This document shows positions 7,810-14,069 of a stretch of DNA of 27,545 bases, piece by piece. The stretch lies in the IMG/VR virus record IMGVR_UViG_3300042534_000281, positions 1-27,545 of that record. One strand, written 5' to 3'. The notes under the pieces were generated by a model. That model saw nothing but the letters and a program-made list of their open reading frames with translations. It made no database searches and was not told the DNA's origin. Source of the stretch: a virus. Both the position numbers and the translations under genes were made by a program. The number at the start of each line of letters is the position of its first letter. The first letter of the stretch is position 1.

Positions 7810-8066
7810 TGATGAATAAAAATGAGCGCCAATTATTGGCTAAGCTCGGGCTCATCTTAACTGATTTAGAACTCGGCCCCGAGCAAGACCGCAATGGCGA
7901 GTTCATCACAACCGGTTCATTTAAAATTGACAACGAAGTATTCAGATCAATGTGCTATTTGATTCGGTTGACTGAAATGATTGCCAATACCAAGAATCCT
8001 GCTTGCAACAAAATGTTCGAGCAGCTTGTAACAATGTTAGAACTTACTCGCAAGGAAGAAGGATAA
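7809..8066 (+). CDS. Unknown 85-aa helical protein
   Basis: The ATG at 7809 overlaps the previous stop (TAATG); ATG at 7812 is equally possible. The protein is helical: NERQLLAKLGLILTDLEL, FRSMCYLIRLTEMIA, CNKMFEQLVTMLEL. No motif is recognised. It overlaps the next gene as TAATG. Confidence 0.75.
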   Translation: MMNKNERQLLAKLGLILTDLELGPEQDRNGEFITTGSFKIDNEVFRSMCYLIRLTEMIANTKNPACNKMFEQLVTMLELTRKEEG

Positions 8067-11715: not shown

Positions 11716-12024
11716 ATGAAGAGTAAACACAACAAAGAAACAAAGACTCTTGTTATGATACCACTGTATAAAATGAGGGTCGAGAAAGATAAAACGAAGT
11801 ACAATAAAAAAGTTAAGCATAAAGGAAAAGGGCCCGAAGGCCCTTTTTATTTGACTACAATTTCAGAATCTTATTCTTCTGGAGGATTGTGTTTAGGTCC
11901 TGAATTTACATATAAACCAAACCATGCTGCACCTGCGCCAGTAACTACAGAAATTAATCCTGCTTGCTCTAGTGTAGGGTTTGGCAATGCCATAAACCAC
12001 GTTACAGTCTTGTACAGTAGATAG
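11716..12024 (+). CDS. ArfA-like alternative ribosome-rescue factor with in-frame terminator
   Basis: The N-terminal ~45 residues align with E. coli ArfA: TLVMIPLYKMRVEKDKTKY followed by NKKVKH, against ALLHDPLFRQRVEKNKKGK with SYMRKGKH in ArfA. ArfA recruits RF2 to ribosomes stalled on non-stop mRNA when tmRNA fails, and its basic tail enters the empty mRNA channel. An intrinsic terminator (11826-11848) covers codons 37-44, so most transcripts should end without a stop codon, as in bacterial arfA. The functional product is probably about 44 aa. The remaining ORF (to 12024) runs antisense through the holin gene and has no character of its own. Strong AGGAG site and strong promoter. Confidence 0.75.
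   Translation: MKSKHNKETKTLVMIPLYKMRVEKDKTKYNKKVKHKGKGPEGPFYLTTISESYSSGGLCLGPEFTYKPNHAAPAPVTTEINPACSSVGFGNAINHVTVLYSR
11826..11848. terminator. Bidirectional intrinsic terminator inside the ArfA-like frame
   Basis: A perfect 9-bp stem AAAAGGGCC / GGCCCTTTT with loop CGAA (TTCG on the - strand), flanked by T-runs in both directions. On the + strand it cuts the ArfA-like frame at about codon 44; on the - strand it lies 23 bp past the holin stop and ends the lysis operon. Confidence 0.9.
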
Positions 12025-12128
12025 ATGTACATGCTGATAAAGATTCTTGGAAAGACTCTCCAAGAATCAAATGCCGCCGCAGCTCGTAAGATACTTCCGT
12101 ACCAGCCTATTTTCTTTTCATTTTCCAT
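11871..12128 (-). CDS. Probable holin, small membrane protein of the lysis cassette
   Basis: The 85-aa product starts MENEKKIGWYGSILRAAAAFDSWRVFPR, followed by a hydrophobic helix (IFISMYIYLLYKTVTWFMAL) and a second one (AGLISVVTGAGAAWFGLYV), ending in a short polar tail. Two transmembrane helices, small size and position next to a spanin pair fit a phage holin, which opens the inner membrane at lysis time. The start is set by GGGAG six bases upstream. Translation is probably gated by the hairpin at 12132-12171 and the internal late promoter. An antiholin or other membrane protein is the alternative. Confidence 0.7.
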   Translation of the reverse strand: MENEKKIGWYGSILRAAAAFDSWRVFPRIFISMYIYLLYKTVTWFMALPNPTLEQAGLISVVTGAGAAWFGLYVNSGPKHNPPEE

Positions 12129-12131
12129 GTT

Positions 12132-12171
12132 AAACTCCCATAAAACATTGTACACGTATTTATGGGAGTTT
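12132..12171 (-). promoter_or_regulatory. Hairpin hiding the holin ribosome binding site, with late promoter inside
   Basis: A 13-bp perfect inverted repeat (12132-12144 with 12159-12171, 14-nt spacer) includes the holin GGGAG site in one arm. The other arm overlaps the late motif CATAAATA (12164-12157, - strand), whose predicted start is 12151. Read-through RNA would form the hairpin; RNA started at 12151 lacks one arm and leaves the site open. T4 genes e and soc use this design. Confidence 0.75.
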
Positions 12172-12174
12172 TGG

Positions 12175-12531
12175 TTATTCTGCTTTTGGAGTTGGAGTTG
12201 TTTCGTAGTACGAAGTAAAGCCTGCAATGACAGCCTTCTGTTGTTTAATTAACTTCATTAAATCACTAGCATTAAGAGCCATGTTCTCGTAGCCCTCGGG
12301 AGTAATAGCAAACAGCGCAACACTCCCTTTTTTAAGCTCAGAGATTACGCGCTGATAATTATCCGGTGTAACAACTAACCACTCGACATTACGTGCCTGG
12401 TACTGGTCCACGGAAGGCAATGTTAGTGGTGCTCGTTCAATCGGCTTTGAAGTTACTTCAATCGGCTTGGTATTGAACAACGAACAACCACTCAAGAACA
12501 CAACGGTTAACAAAATTAATACTATTTTCAT
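12175..12531 (-). CDS. Probable o-spanin lipoprotein
   Basis: The 118-aa product has a lipoprotein signal peptide: MKIVLILLTVVFLSGCSLF, with LSGC as lipobox and Cys16 as the lipidated residue. A Pro/Thr-rich stretch follows (TKPIEVTSKPIERAPLTLPS), then a small globular part. It overlaps the i-spanin gene by 4 bp and precedes the holin, as expected for the outer-membrane subunit of a two-component spanin that fuses inner and outer membranes after peptidoglycan loss. It is longer than many Rz1-type o-spanins, so another lysis-linked lipoprotein remains possible. Confidence 0.7.
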   Translation of the reverse strand: MKIVLILLTVVFLSGCSLFNTKPIEVTSKPIERAPLTLPSVDQYQARNVEWLVVTPDNYQRVISELKKGSVALFAITPEGYENMALNASDLMKLIKQQKAVIAGFTSYYETTPTPKAE

Positions 12532-13001
12532 TTTGCTATCTCCCTATTAGGATTTGCAATTTCCGGACAACTTGTATTCAGCTGCGATTTCTTAGTAGCT
12601 TGGAGCTCTTGATCTGTTAACGGAGAACCACTTAGAATTTCAAAACAACGCTGAACATTCTCTGTTCCTTTCTTAGCTCGGTTCTGAATTAGTCCTGGCT
12701 TGCGTTCTGCAAGAAATCCGAGATCGTGCTTTGATAATAACTCACGAAGTCTTCCGTTGTCTTTGCGAGCAGCTTCGAACTTCGTATTGACTTCGGTGTG
12801 TACTTTTTTTGCTTTGTACACGTCTCGATACAAAGAGTCCAACGCTGCCTCGGACGTTTTGATTGCAATTTCAAGTTTTAGATTGTTATCGTTCAGAGTT
12901 GCTATCTCTTCTTGCGACCACGTGTAATACCATTTCGCAGCTCCTAGAACTGCGACGATGATAAGTATTCCTGCTATCTTAATGTATGTTGTTATTCCCA
13001 T
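12528..13001 (-). CDS. i-spanin (Rz-like)
   Basis: The 157-aa protein has a short N-terminus, one transmembrane helix (IKIAGILIIVAVLGAAKWYYTW, about residues 7-28) and a periplasmic part of coiled-coil type (EEIATLNDNNLKLEIAIKTS..., ARKDNGRLRELL). The block LSKHDLGFLAERKPGLIQNR is what I recall of phage i-spanins of the Rz type, and two periplasmic cysteines could cross-link dimers. It pairs with the overlapping lipoprotein gene. No ribosome binding site is visible; the late motif places the transcript start on the A of the ATG. Confidence 0.85.
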   Translation of the reverse strand: MGITTYIKIAGILIIVAVLGAAKWYYTWSQEEIATLNDNNLKLEIAIKTSEAALDSLYRDVYKAKKVHTEVNTKFEAARKDNGRLRELLSKHDLGFLAERKPGLIQNRAKKGTENVQRCFEILSGSPLTDQELQATKKSQLNTSCPEIANPNREIAK

Positions 13002-13027: not shown

Positions 13028-13055
13028 TTGAAGATAAATATTATGATGTTATAAT
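13028..13055 (+). promoter_or_regulatory. Sigma-70 promoter for the tRNA / structured RNA
   Basis: TTGAAG (13028-13033), a 16-bp spacer and TATAAT (13050-13055). It lies 52 bp before the tRNA and diverges from the lysis operon. Confidence 0.75.
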
Positions 13056-13193: not shown

Positions 13194-13199
13194 ATTTTA

Positions 13200-13790
13200 T
13201 TTTGTAGTCTGATGTCCATAGCTTATTAGTAATATGATGAAATATTACTATGTCGCAAACTACATAAACTTGACGGCACGTAGATGTGTAGAGGATTTGG
13301 GGTCGCCGTCCTTCCCCAAAAGCTGGACGATACCTAACCAGCACAGTTTTTGTCAGCAGACCTCTATATGCTGAAGGGAGAAGAGGTTGGTTCGTCCTCG
13401 GAAGAGGAAACGGTAATTGTGACTTATTGCGGTCACCCAGTAAACCCACAATTTATTCAAGCAAACGCACTCACGGTAGGTGGCGATGCTCACGTTATGC
13501 AGGTTGAAAGCCTTTACCTTCGGGACGACGTGGTTGTATGCCTGATACCGACCAAAGACAAAGCCTACTAATTTTGAAGGTACTTGCCCGAATCCCTGAA
13601 TGCGGTAAACAATAACCCGGTTAAGACAAGTACTTTATCGTCCGTGGACCACCGAAACGGTTGCAGTGGAGCTAAGGCCCTTATGCTTTGAAACTGCAAC
13701 TAGCCGTAAGGAATAGGGAGAATCGAAGCCAGATCTTGGGCTCAAATCGGCAAAAGGGGTGAAAAGCCCTTCAAATTCAAGCACATAGCA
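13200..13790 (+). ncRNA. Candidate large structured non-coding RNA next to a tRNA
   Basis: About 590 nt with no convincing gene but many perfect helices: 13203-13208/13259-13264; 13227-13234/13243-13250; 13272-13277/13305-13310; 13296-13302/13314-13320 (crossing the former, a pseudoknot); 13322-13326/13338-13342; 13353-13358/13369-13374; 13395-13399/13404-13408 with a GGAA tetraloop; 13419-13423/13432-13436; 13580-13586/13627-13633; 13660-13667/13693-13700; 13754-13758/13767-13771. Loop CCTCT (13361-13365) can pair with AGAGG (13382-13386). Size and position beside a phage tRNA recall the ROOL and GOLLD classes, though no consensus was recognised. A 73-codon TTG frame (13350-13571) is the main alternative. 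Confidence 0.6.
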
Positions 13791-13803
13791 TCCAAAATAA
13801 AGG

Positions 13804-13832
13804 TTGACCTTTTACTACTGACCCCGTATAAT
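13804..13832 (+). promoter_or_regulatory. Strong sigma-70 (early-type) promoter, duplicate of the one at 5172
   Basis: TTGACC (13804-13809), a 17-bp spacer and TATAAT (13827-13832). Positions 13792-13837 are identical to 5160-5205. It precedes the radical SAM/TPM/LemA gene cluster. Confidence 0.9.
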
Positions 13833-13859
13833 GTACACATAAATTAAGGTTTACCAAAA

Positions 13860-14069
13860 ATGTGTACATTTTTAGAACAACGGCAAAGTAAAATGAAAGC
13901 ATACCGCGAATTAGCAATAAAGTATCCGGCTCAGGCTAGATCGCTAAAATCATACCAGAGCTTCGGTTGGATCATAACCGGTTTAGGTTCTGGCAATTCA
14001 ATTAATATTGCACTTGCTAATGGTTCTGCTGGTTACATTAGAACTGACGGAACATTTAGATATGTCTGA
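13860..14069 (+). CDS. Unknown 69-aa basic protein
   Basis: This first gene after the promoter starts at ATG 13860, with AAGG ten bases upstream; a shorter start at 13893 (MKAYREL) is possible. It has a basic helical N-terminal part (KAYRELAIKYPAQARSLKSY) and a glycine/strand C-terminus (GWIITGLGSGNSINIALANG). No function is recognised. It overlaps the next gene by 8 bp. Confidence 0.7.
   Translation: MCTFLEQRQSKMKAYRELAIKYPAQARSLKSYQSFGWIITGLGSGNSINIALANGSAGYIRTDGTFRYV

Follow-up and report, generated by a model that had tools for sequence, protein, structure and literature searches.

A predicted kissing-loop RNA of about 80 nucleotides in the tRNA clusters of unrelated phages

The locus and its source

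The DNA analysed here (the window) comprises the complete 27,545 bases of one IMG/VR virus record. It represents part of the genome of a large tailed phage and carries NAMPT, NadM-Nudix and 5'-3' exonuclease genes. On its plus strand, a tRNA-Leu gene is followed by a conserved RNA element, a small open reading frame (ORF) and a stretch in which neither coding, conservation nor supported structure was found (Table 1). A minus-strand lysis cassette (11871-13001) borders the non-coding stretch; it contains matches to o-spanin and i-spanin (12175-12531, 12528-13001) and, at 11871-12227 on the minus strand, a holin-like small membrane protein, judged from its sequence.

Two promoters had been predicted around this region, one of the sigma-70 type before the tRNA and a new one where the proposed structure ends, and both were recovered by a consensus scan. 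The upstream site, whose consensus match does not by itself demonstrate function, is the probable start of a transcript that bears both the tRNA-Leu and the element. The downstream site, of early type, carries a palindromic box, AAAGGTTGACCTTTT, that is also found in the 250-kb phage contig L003 (at about 12770 and 20796).

Table 1. Features of the window around the tRNA-Leu gene
Feature	Position	Strand	Basis and details
Promoter-like site, sigma-70 type, 5' of tRNA-Leu	13028..13055	+	TTGAAG-16-TATAAT; consensus scan, 10/12 matches
tRNA-Leu, anticodon UAA	13107..13193	+	ARAGORN; Rfam RF00005, 53.7 bits
Conserved kissing-loop (pseudoknot) RNA element, about 80 nt	13264..13344	+	Model R1, BLAST and pattern relatives, covariation
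Hairpin P1	13268..13281	+	13268-13270 ACT with 13278 and 13280-13281 (A, GT); C13279 bulged; loop contains kissing strand 1
Kissing strand 1, GACGGC	13272..13277	+	Pairs with 13305-13310 GCCGTC; 5 of 6 pairs change two-sidedly
Hairpin P2	13296..13320	+	Stem 13296-13302/13314-13320; loop TC-GCCGTC-CTT carries kissing strand 2 (13305-13310)
Hairpin P3, GCTGG-ACGATACCTAA-CCAGC	13322..13342	+	Retained in relatives; C-G/U-A covariation
Small ORF, 73 aa from TTG 13350	13350..13571	+	Other starts ATG 13368, GTG 13419; codon score 0.084
Stretch without coding, conservation or supported structure	13572..13803	+	No blastn relative; folding at shuffle level
Promoter-like site, next transcription unit	13804..13832	+	TTGACC-17-TATAAT; consensus scan, 11/12 matches

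Extent of the structured RNA

The original prediction was of a single structured RNA of about 590 nt, covering 13200-13790, with at least eleven perfect helices and no convincing gene. An RNA of this size is unsupported, because both its helices and its folding are at the level of chance and a gene-like ORF lies inside it. When the span was limited to 60 nt, 8 perfect helices of 6 bp or more were counted, versus 4.7 +/- 2.3 in shuffled sequences (5 of the 60 shuffles reached 8), and when no limit was set on the span, the whole stretch held 28 versus 30.3 in shuffles; the helix count is thus ordinary. The segment 13194-13800 is not more stable than its shuffles (z -0.21), and the local folding z-scores of the stretch equal the average for the 27,545-base window on both strands. 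Conservation is confined to 13264-13344, and blastn detected no conservation of 13346-13800 elsewhere. The predicted GGAA tetraloop hairpin does exist as CCTC-GGAA-GAGG, but it sits inside the ORF, and the other helices that were put forward lie where the sequence is not conserved or is probably coding.

The absence of a gene is itself doubtful, as the codon use of the ORF resembles that of the phage's own genes. Its codon score ranks 2nd among 83 ORFs of 50-120 aa that are outside the gene list; the median for genes is about 0.10, and nearly all non-gene ORFs score negative. Homologue searches with the encoded protein, IMG/VR included, gave none. Judging from this codon use, the ORF is probably a real phage gene that is separate from the RNA.

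It might still be argued that a large ornate RNA spans 13200-13790 and that the 80-nt element is one of its domains, as the gene-poor stretch adjoining the tRNA is long and abundant non-coding RNAs of 0.6-0.8 kb exist in other phages (ICP1, PMC7567579). We regard this as very improbable in view of the chance-level helices and folding, the probable gene within the stretch, the narrow limits of the conservation, and the relatives, in which the 80-nt element occurs by itself, fitted closely between tRNAs.

Fold of the conserved element

The pseudoknot singled out at the start proved exact to the base: GACGGC with GCCGTC crosses the helix TTTGGGG/CCCCAAA (Table 1), and it is the core of the conserved element. 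Because the P1 stem flanks GACGGC, both strands of the knot are hairpin loops, GACGGC in P1 and GCCGTC in P2, and the pseudoknot is almost certainly a loop-loop kiss. The two hairpins are connected by a conserved linker, AGAUGUGUAA. Downstream, P3 follows the consensus GCYGG-ACGAUACSUAA-CCRGC in most members, with a conserved loop, ACGAUACSUAA. An additional arm extends P3 in L042, L048, L123 and phage My1 (relatives are cited by their L numbers). L005, L007, L008 and L081 lack P3 or have something else in its stead; in L081 this is a hairpin resembling a terminator, with a T run, immediately 3' of P2. A contact between the linker and the P3 loop (GUGU with AUAC or ACAC) was considered and rejected, since it fails in some members. 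The family thus delineated would consist of small structured RNAs of about 70-115 nt that live mainly in phage tRNA clusters.

Relatives of the element

The element was found in 18 distinct settings, which comprise IMG/VR phage contigs, the Pectobacterium phages My1 (L245) and DU_PP_V (L283), both Demerecviridae, and the tRNA arrays of large Vibrio replicons. With 13194-13860 as the query, BLAST against large replicons returned four intergenic Vibrio hits (E 4e-3), all of which cover window positions 13266-13312, that is, the pseudoknot, and are located within long tRNA arrays. A scan with the core pattern yielded L005 and L007, of which L005 has GTTGGGG/CCCCAAC where the window has TTTGGGG/CCCCAAA. 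A wider pattern combined with a P2 filter added L031, L042, L048, L061, L081, L088, L093, L110, L123 and L124, some of these contigs coming with near-identical duplicates; this wide scan was flooded by chance matches in GC-rich genes, which were cleared by the P2 filter and the covariance model. A pattern that described the third hairpin only, and was therefore blind to the pseudoknot, retrieved nine contigs, and the pseudoknot lay upstream in all nine, including one in which the stem was fully replaced. The L088 element used as a BLAST query led to My1, and the My1 element led to DU_PP_V.

Other searches delimit this distribution. The pattern scan of genome contigs gave no member that stood out, the element occurred in 0 of 369 genomes of one class, and it was not found in E. 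coli genomes. It was likewise not found in ten further phages that are large or carry tRNAs (phiKZ, CBB, XbC2, XacN1, RcXuper, DSS3_MAL1, BcepSauron, KVP40, LucasX and phiAS5), among which a single chance hit reached 15 bits. ICP1, whose lysis genes lie near an abundant long non-coding RNA, gave none either. A weak BLAST hit pointed to Acinetobacter phage Acba_22, which is not a member. Relatives were sought in IMG/VR through the neighbouring radical-SAM gene, the 73-aa ORF and the phrog_2087 protein, and none were found; the NAMPT search gave one distant contig, L003, that is without the element. The element is a rare, phage-centred RNA.

Covariation and the covariance model

Comparison of the homologous regions, as proposed with the original prediction, gave strong covariation for 13264-13344 and no homology beyond it. 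Alignment A3, with 18 distinct sequences and 20 pairs, has standard pairs in 96.8% of its cells, versus 28.6-55.4% when the partners are slid by 1-3 columns. Two-sided changes occur in 15 of the 20 pairs, and the observed values were reached by none of 500 shuffles. All eight alignment pairs of P2 change on both sides, with 93.8% of their cells paired, and the kissing helix changes likewise (Table 1), being swapped to GGGATA/TATCCC in L278/L279 and to GACGGT/ACCGTC in DU_PP_V. Part of this agreement was selected, as stem 1 was held constant in the pattern scans and P2 was filtered for, which is how most of the sequences were gathered; the covariation of stem 1 and P2 is therefore firmest in L008, L245, L281, L278 and L280, which were found without that selection.

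The P1 stem played no part in any search or filter and ranks with these members as the strictest evidence. Among 12 CGY-type members, its pair (-4,+10) is A-U in six, G-C in five and G-U in one, its pair (-3,+9) is C-G in ten and U-G in one with one mismatch, and its pair (-2,+7) is divided equally between A-U and U-A (six each). Six members that have TGA after the kissing strand retain (-2,+7), and five of these six show U-A at (-3,+9). On the tRNA strand, G-U cells number 9 versus 2 A-C cells; an excess of G-U over A-C is what RNA predicts, and DNA or the other strand does not, so this strand is read as the RNA strand.

Covariance model R1 was trained on 14 sequences, which match by construction; it gives 71.6 bits for the window, itself in the training set, and 51-78 bits for the training relatives. 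The independent L245, L251, L280 and L281 score 44-69 bits, and chance matches of the scan pattern score at most 23 bits. L278/L279, in which stem 1 is replaced, reach only 16.7 bits because R1 treats stem 1 as sequence; their P1, P2, P3 and compensatory stem nevertheless assign them, on comparative grounds, to the family. The folding energy of the element (z about -0.4) does not set it apart. RNAs of this sort escape folding energy alone and are exposed by covariation.

Genomic context

A tRNA gene on the same strand lies within 500 nt of the element in 13 of the 18 settings, and in every case the tRNAs and the element occupy one strand; no tRNA was seen near the element in the DNA examined for L110, L123, L061, L278 and L081. 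In the window the element lies 70 nt 3' of the tRNA-Leu, in L088 it occupies the entire gap between tRNA-Met and tRNA-Gly, and in five backgrounds (L088, L093, L031, L042 and L048) about 4-11 nt separate the end of P3 from the tRNA that follows. The Vibrio arrays (L008-L010), on replicons of about 0.9 Mb, hold 9 to 18 or more tRNAs each, with duplicated Arg/Met blocks, and V. vulnificus has two copies of the element. When the 2.5-kb flanks of different phages were compared, their common content was the element, the tRNAs and a few small modules; the element therefore moves or persists as a module, since these flanks otherwise share little.

Other units were observed in the same clusters. A second recurrent non-coding module has an outer stem, TGATGGTGAATGCG ... 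CACCATCA, and an inner GCCGG..CCGGC hairpin, and is located in L110 (1647-1761), L280 (minus strand, oriented 7939-8062 and 8394 onward) and L042 (minus strand, oriented 791-889). In L042 and L280 it adjoins the kissing-loop element, and in L280 also a tRNA; it would seem to be a further RNA of tRNA arrays that has not been described. Directly 3' of the element, L110 and L061 have long perfect stems (of the GGAAGCGG..CCGCTTCC type) around 90-120 nt, which suggests strings of ORF-free structured RNA units. A 54-nt module, 98% alike in My1 (L245 2388-2441) and DU_PP_V, precedes the element in the former and follows it in the latter; since it switches sides, the non-tRNA units of these clusters shuffle. 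With the kissing-loop element, tRNA arrays are shown to move structured cassettes other than tRNAs.

Possible roles

The element would be transcribed together with the tRNAs, in the window from the promoter at 13028-13055. Its release may fall to the enzymes that trim tRNAs, with RNase P acting at the next tRNA and 3' trimming at the previous one, or alternatively to a terminator of its own, and the freed RNA would stay stable through its compact fold. From its context, we infer that it may act in trans during infection, presenting a host factor with the conserved linker and the P3 loop, with an effect on host take-over, tRNA economy or counter-defence. Taken as a whole, a family of tRNA-cluster kissing-loop RNAs that work as trans-acting small RNAs is the best explanation and one that we consider rather probable; that the RNA acts in trans as a stand-alone molecule is, by itself, slightly favoured, and any particular target has to be rated unlikely at best. 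It is conceivable, though we do not expect it, that this tRNA-sized cassette is a regulatory or counter-defence RNA that binds a host enzyme that handles RNA or cuts tRNAs, or else a self-cleaving ribozyme that processes tRNA precursors. In the former case, which would be a new class of RNA, the built-in kissing-loop fold would serve to disarm or redirect the host enzyme, and the cassette would have spread via phage and Vibrio tRNA arrays, a combination that we put forward tentatively.

The main rival is a role in cis, in which the knot blocks exonucleases on the tRNA precursor, or positions RNase P or RNase E there, and the RNA has no further task. Compact pseudoknots are able to block nucleases, and the close approach of P3 to the next tRNA in five backgrounds fits such a function. 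This proposal is weakened by members that come after a tRNA, as in the window and My1, or that have none near, as in L081, where the element is followed by a terminator; in addition, the conserved loop letters (AUGUGUAA, ACSUAA) go beyond the needs of a simple roadblock, and we consider a purely cis-acting element unlikely. The precursor could also be cut between tRNAs by the element itself, acting as a self-cleaving ribozyme. Its size, pseudoknot and conserved unpaired letters recall small ribozymes in general, and the P1-loop pseudoknot recalls pistol in particular, but neither the element nor its relatives match any ribozyme family of Rfam, pistol, twister, hatchet, HDV-like and hammerhead included, no cleavage site is recognisable, and the helix order presumably differs from that of pistol, all of which makes self-cleavage improbable.

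Pairing of the kissing loops between molecules, rather than within one, would turn the element into an assembly module that forms dimers or rings, comparable to the phi29 pRNA or to the GOLLD and ROOL cages. The perfectly complementary 6-bp loop pair would also permit pairing between copies, and quaternary kissing loops are present in ROOL and GOLLD (PMC12286853); the short conserved linker and the adjacent loops favour intramolecular pairing, however, and there is as a rule one copy per locus, so that we hold assembly to be quite improbable. Lastly, the conserved unit might function as DNA, for example as a recombination site that folds as a single strand and aids the shuffling of tRNA cassettes. 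Its presence in modular, shuffling tRNA arrays and, for V. vulnificus, a gene of the recombinase family in the region would agree with this, but the one-strand G-U pairs, the constant orientation with the tRNAs, the conservation of the loops and the lack of a breakpoint at the element all point away from it, and a DNA-level site appears very improbable.

Comparison with known RNA families

The forecast of a structured RNA beside a phage tRNA has been borne out for the element of about 80 nt, which is outside every Rfam class. Searched with Rfam 15 at the gathering threshold, the window and the 18 loci with relatives gave tRNA only, and relaxed E values added nothing meaningful. Identity with a tRNA or tmRNA was rejected, as ARAGORN and Rfam detect only the neighbouring tRNA-Leu. 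The open-access papers that were searched contain no description of the element.

Divergent membership of ROOL or GOLLD, which had been suggested together with the search that could reveal it, does not hold. The ROOL covariance model (RF03087) finds no match in the window at E<=10, and neither does that of GOLLD (RF02032), its 3' domain included, which gives none in the relatives either. A 580-nt conserved ornate structure, as in ROOL, is absent, the conservation and the whole-stretch folding being as described above. Both RNAs occur in phages or prophages near tRNA islands, contain kissing loops and are of unknown function (PMC12286853). The element resembles them in its phage hosts, its proximity to tRNAs and its kissing loops; the GOLLD trait of lying in phage tRNA islands, seen in 13 of the 18 settings, is a common context only. 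Unlike them, it measures about 80 nt versus about 580 to over 800, and it differs in sequence and architecture.

Among smaller RNAs, the ToxI-type antitoxins of type III systems are short H-type pseudoknots that act in trans, as the element may; unlike ToxI, which forms tandem repeats beside a toxin gene, the element is single, lies among tRNAs with no toxin seen, and has no Rfam match. In the phi29 packaging RNA and the pistol ribozyme, a hairpin loop takes part in a loop pseudoknot; the element differs from both in helix order, context and conserved letters, again with no Rfam match.

The closest parallel in setting is provided by the stable RNAs that are annotated in the tRNA clusters of T5 (rnaI, rnaIII, rnaIV, rna1, rna2, rna2H, rna3 and rnaX) and T4 (rnaC and rnaD), long-known small RNAs whose function is unknown. 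Like them, the element is a small non-coding unit between or beside phage tRNA genes and on the same strand, and My1 and DU_PP_V share the family of T5, Demerecviridae. No sequence or loop motif common to both was seen, and a search of the T5 and T4 genomes with model R1 gave no member; with filters off, their clusters gave none either, the best chance hit being 5.2 bits. The element gives an RNA of this sort a firm fold, a search model and a spread that takes in bacterial tRNA arrays as well as unrelated phages; because these are known and two isolated phages carry it, its role is now testable. With it, the known but unexplained small RNAs of phage tRNA clusters gain a new family.
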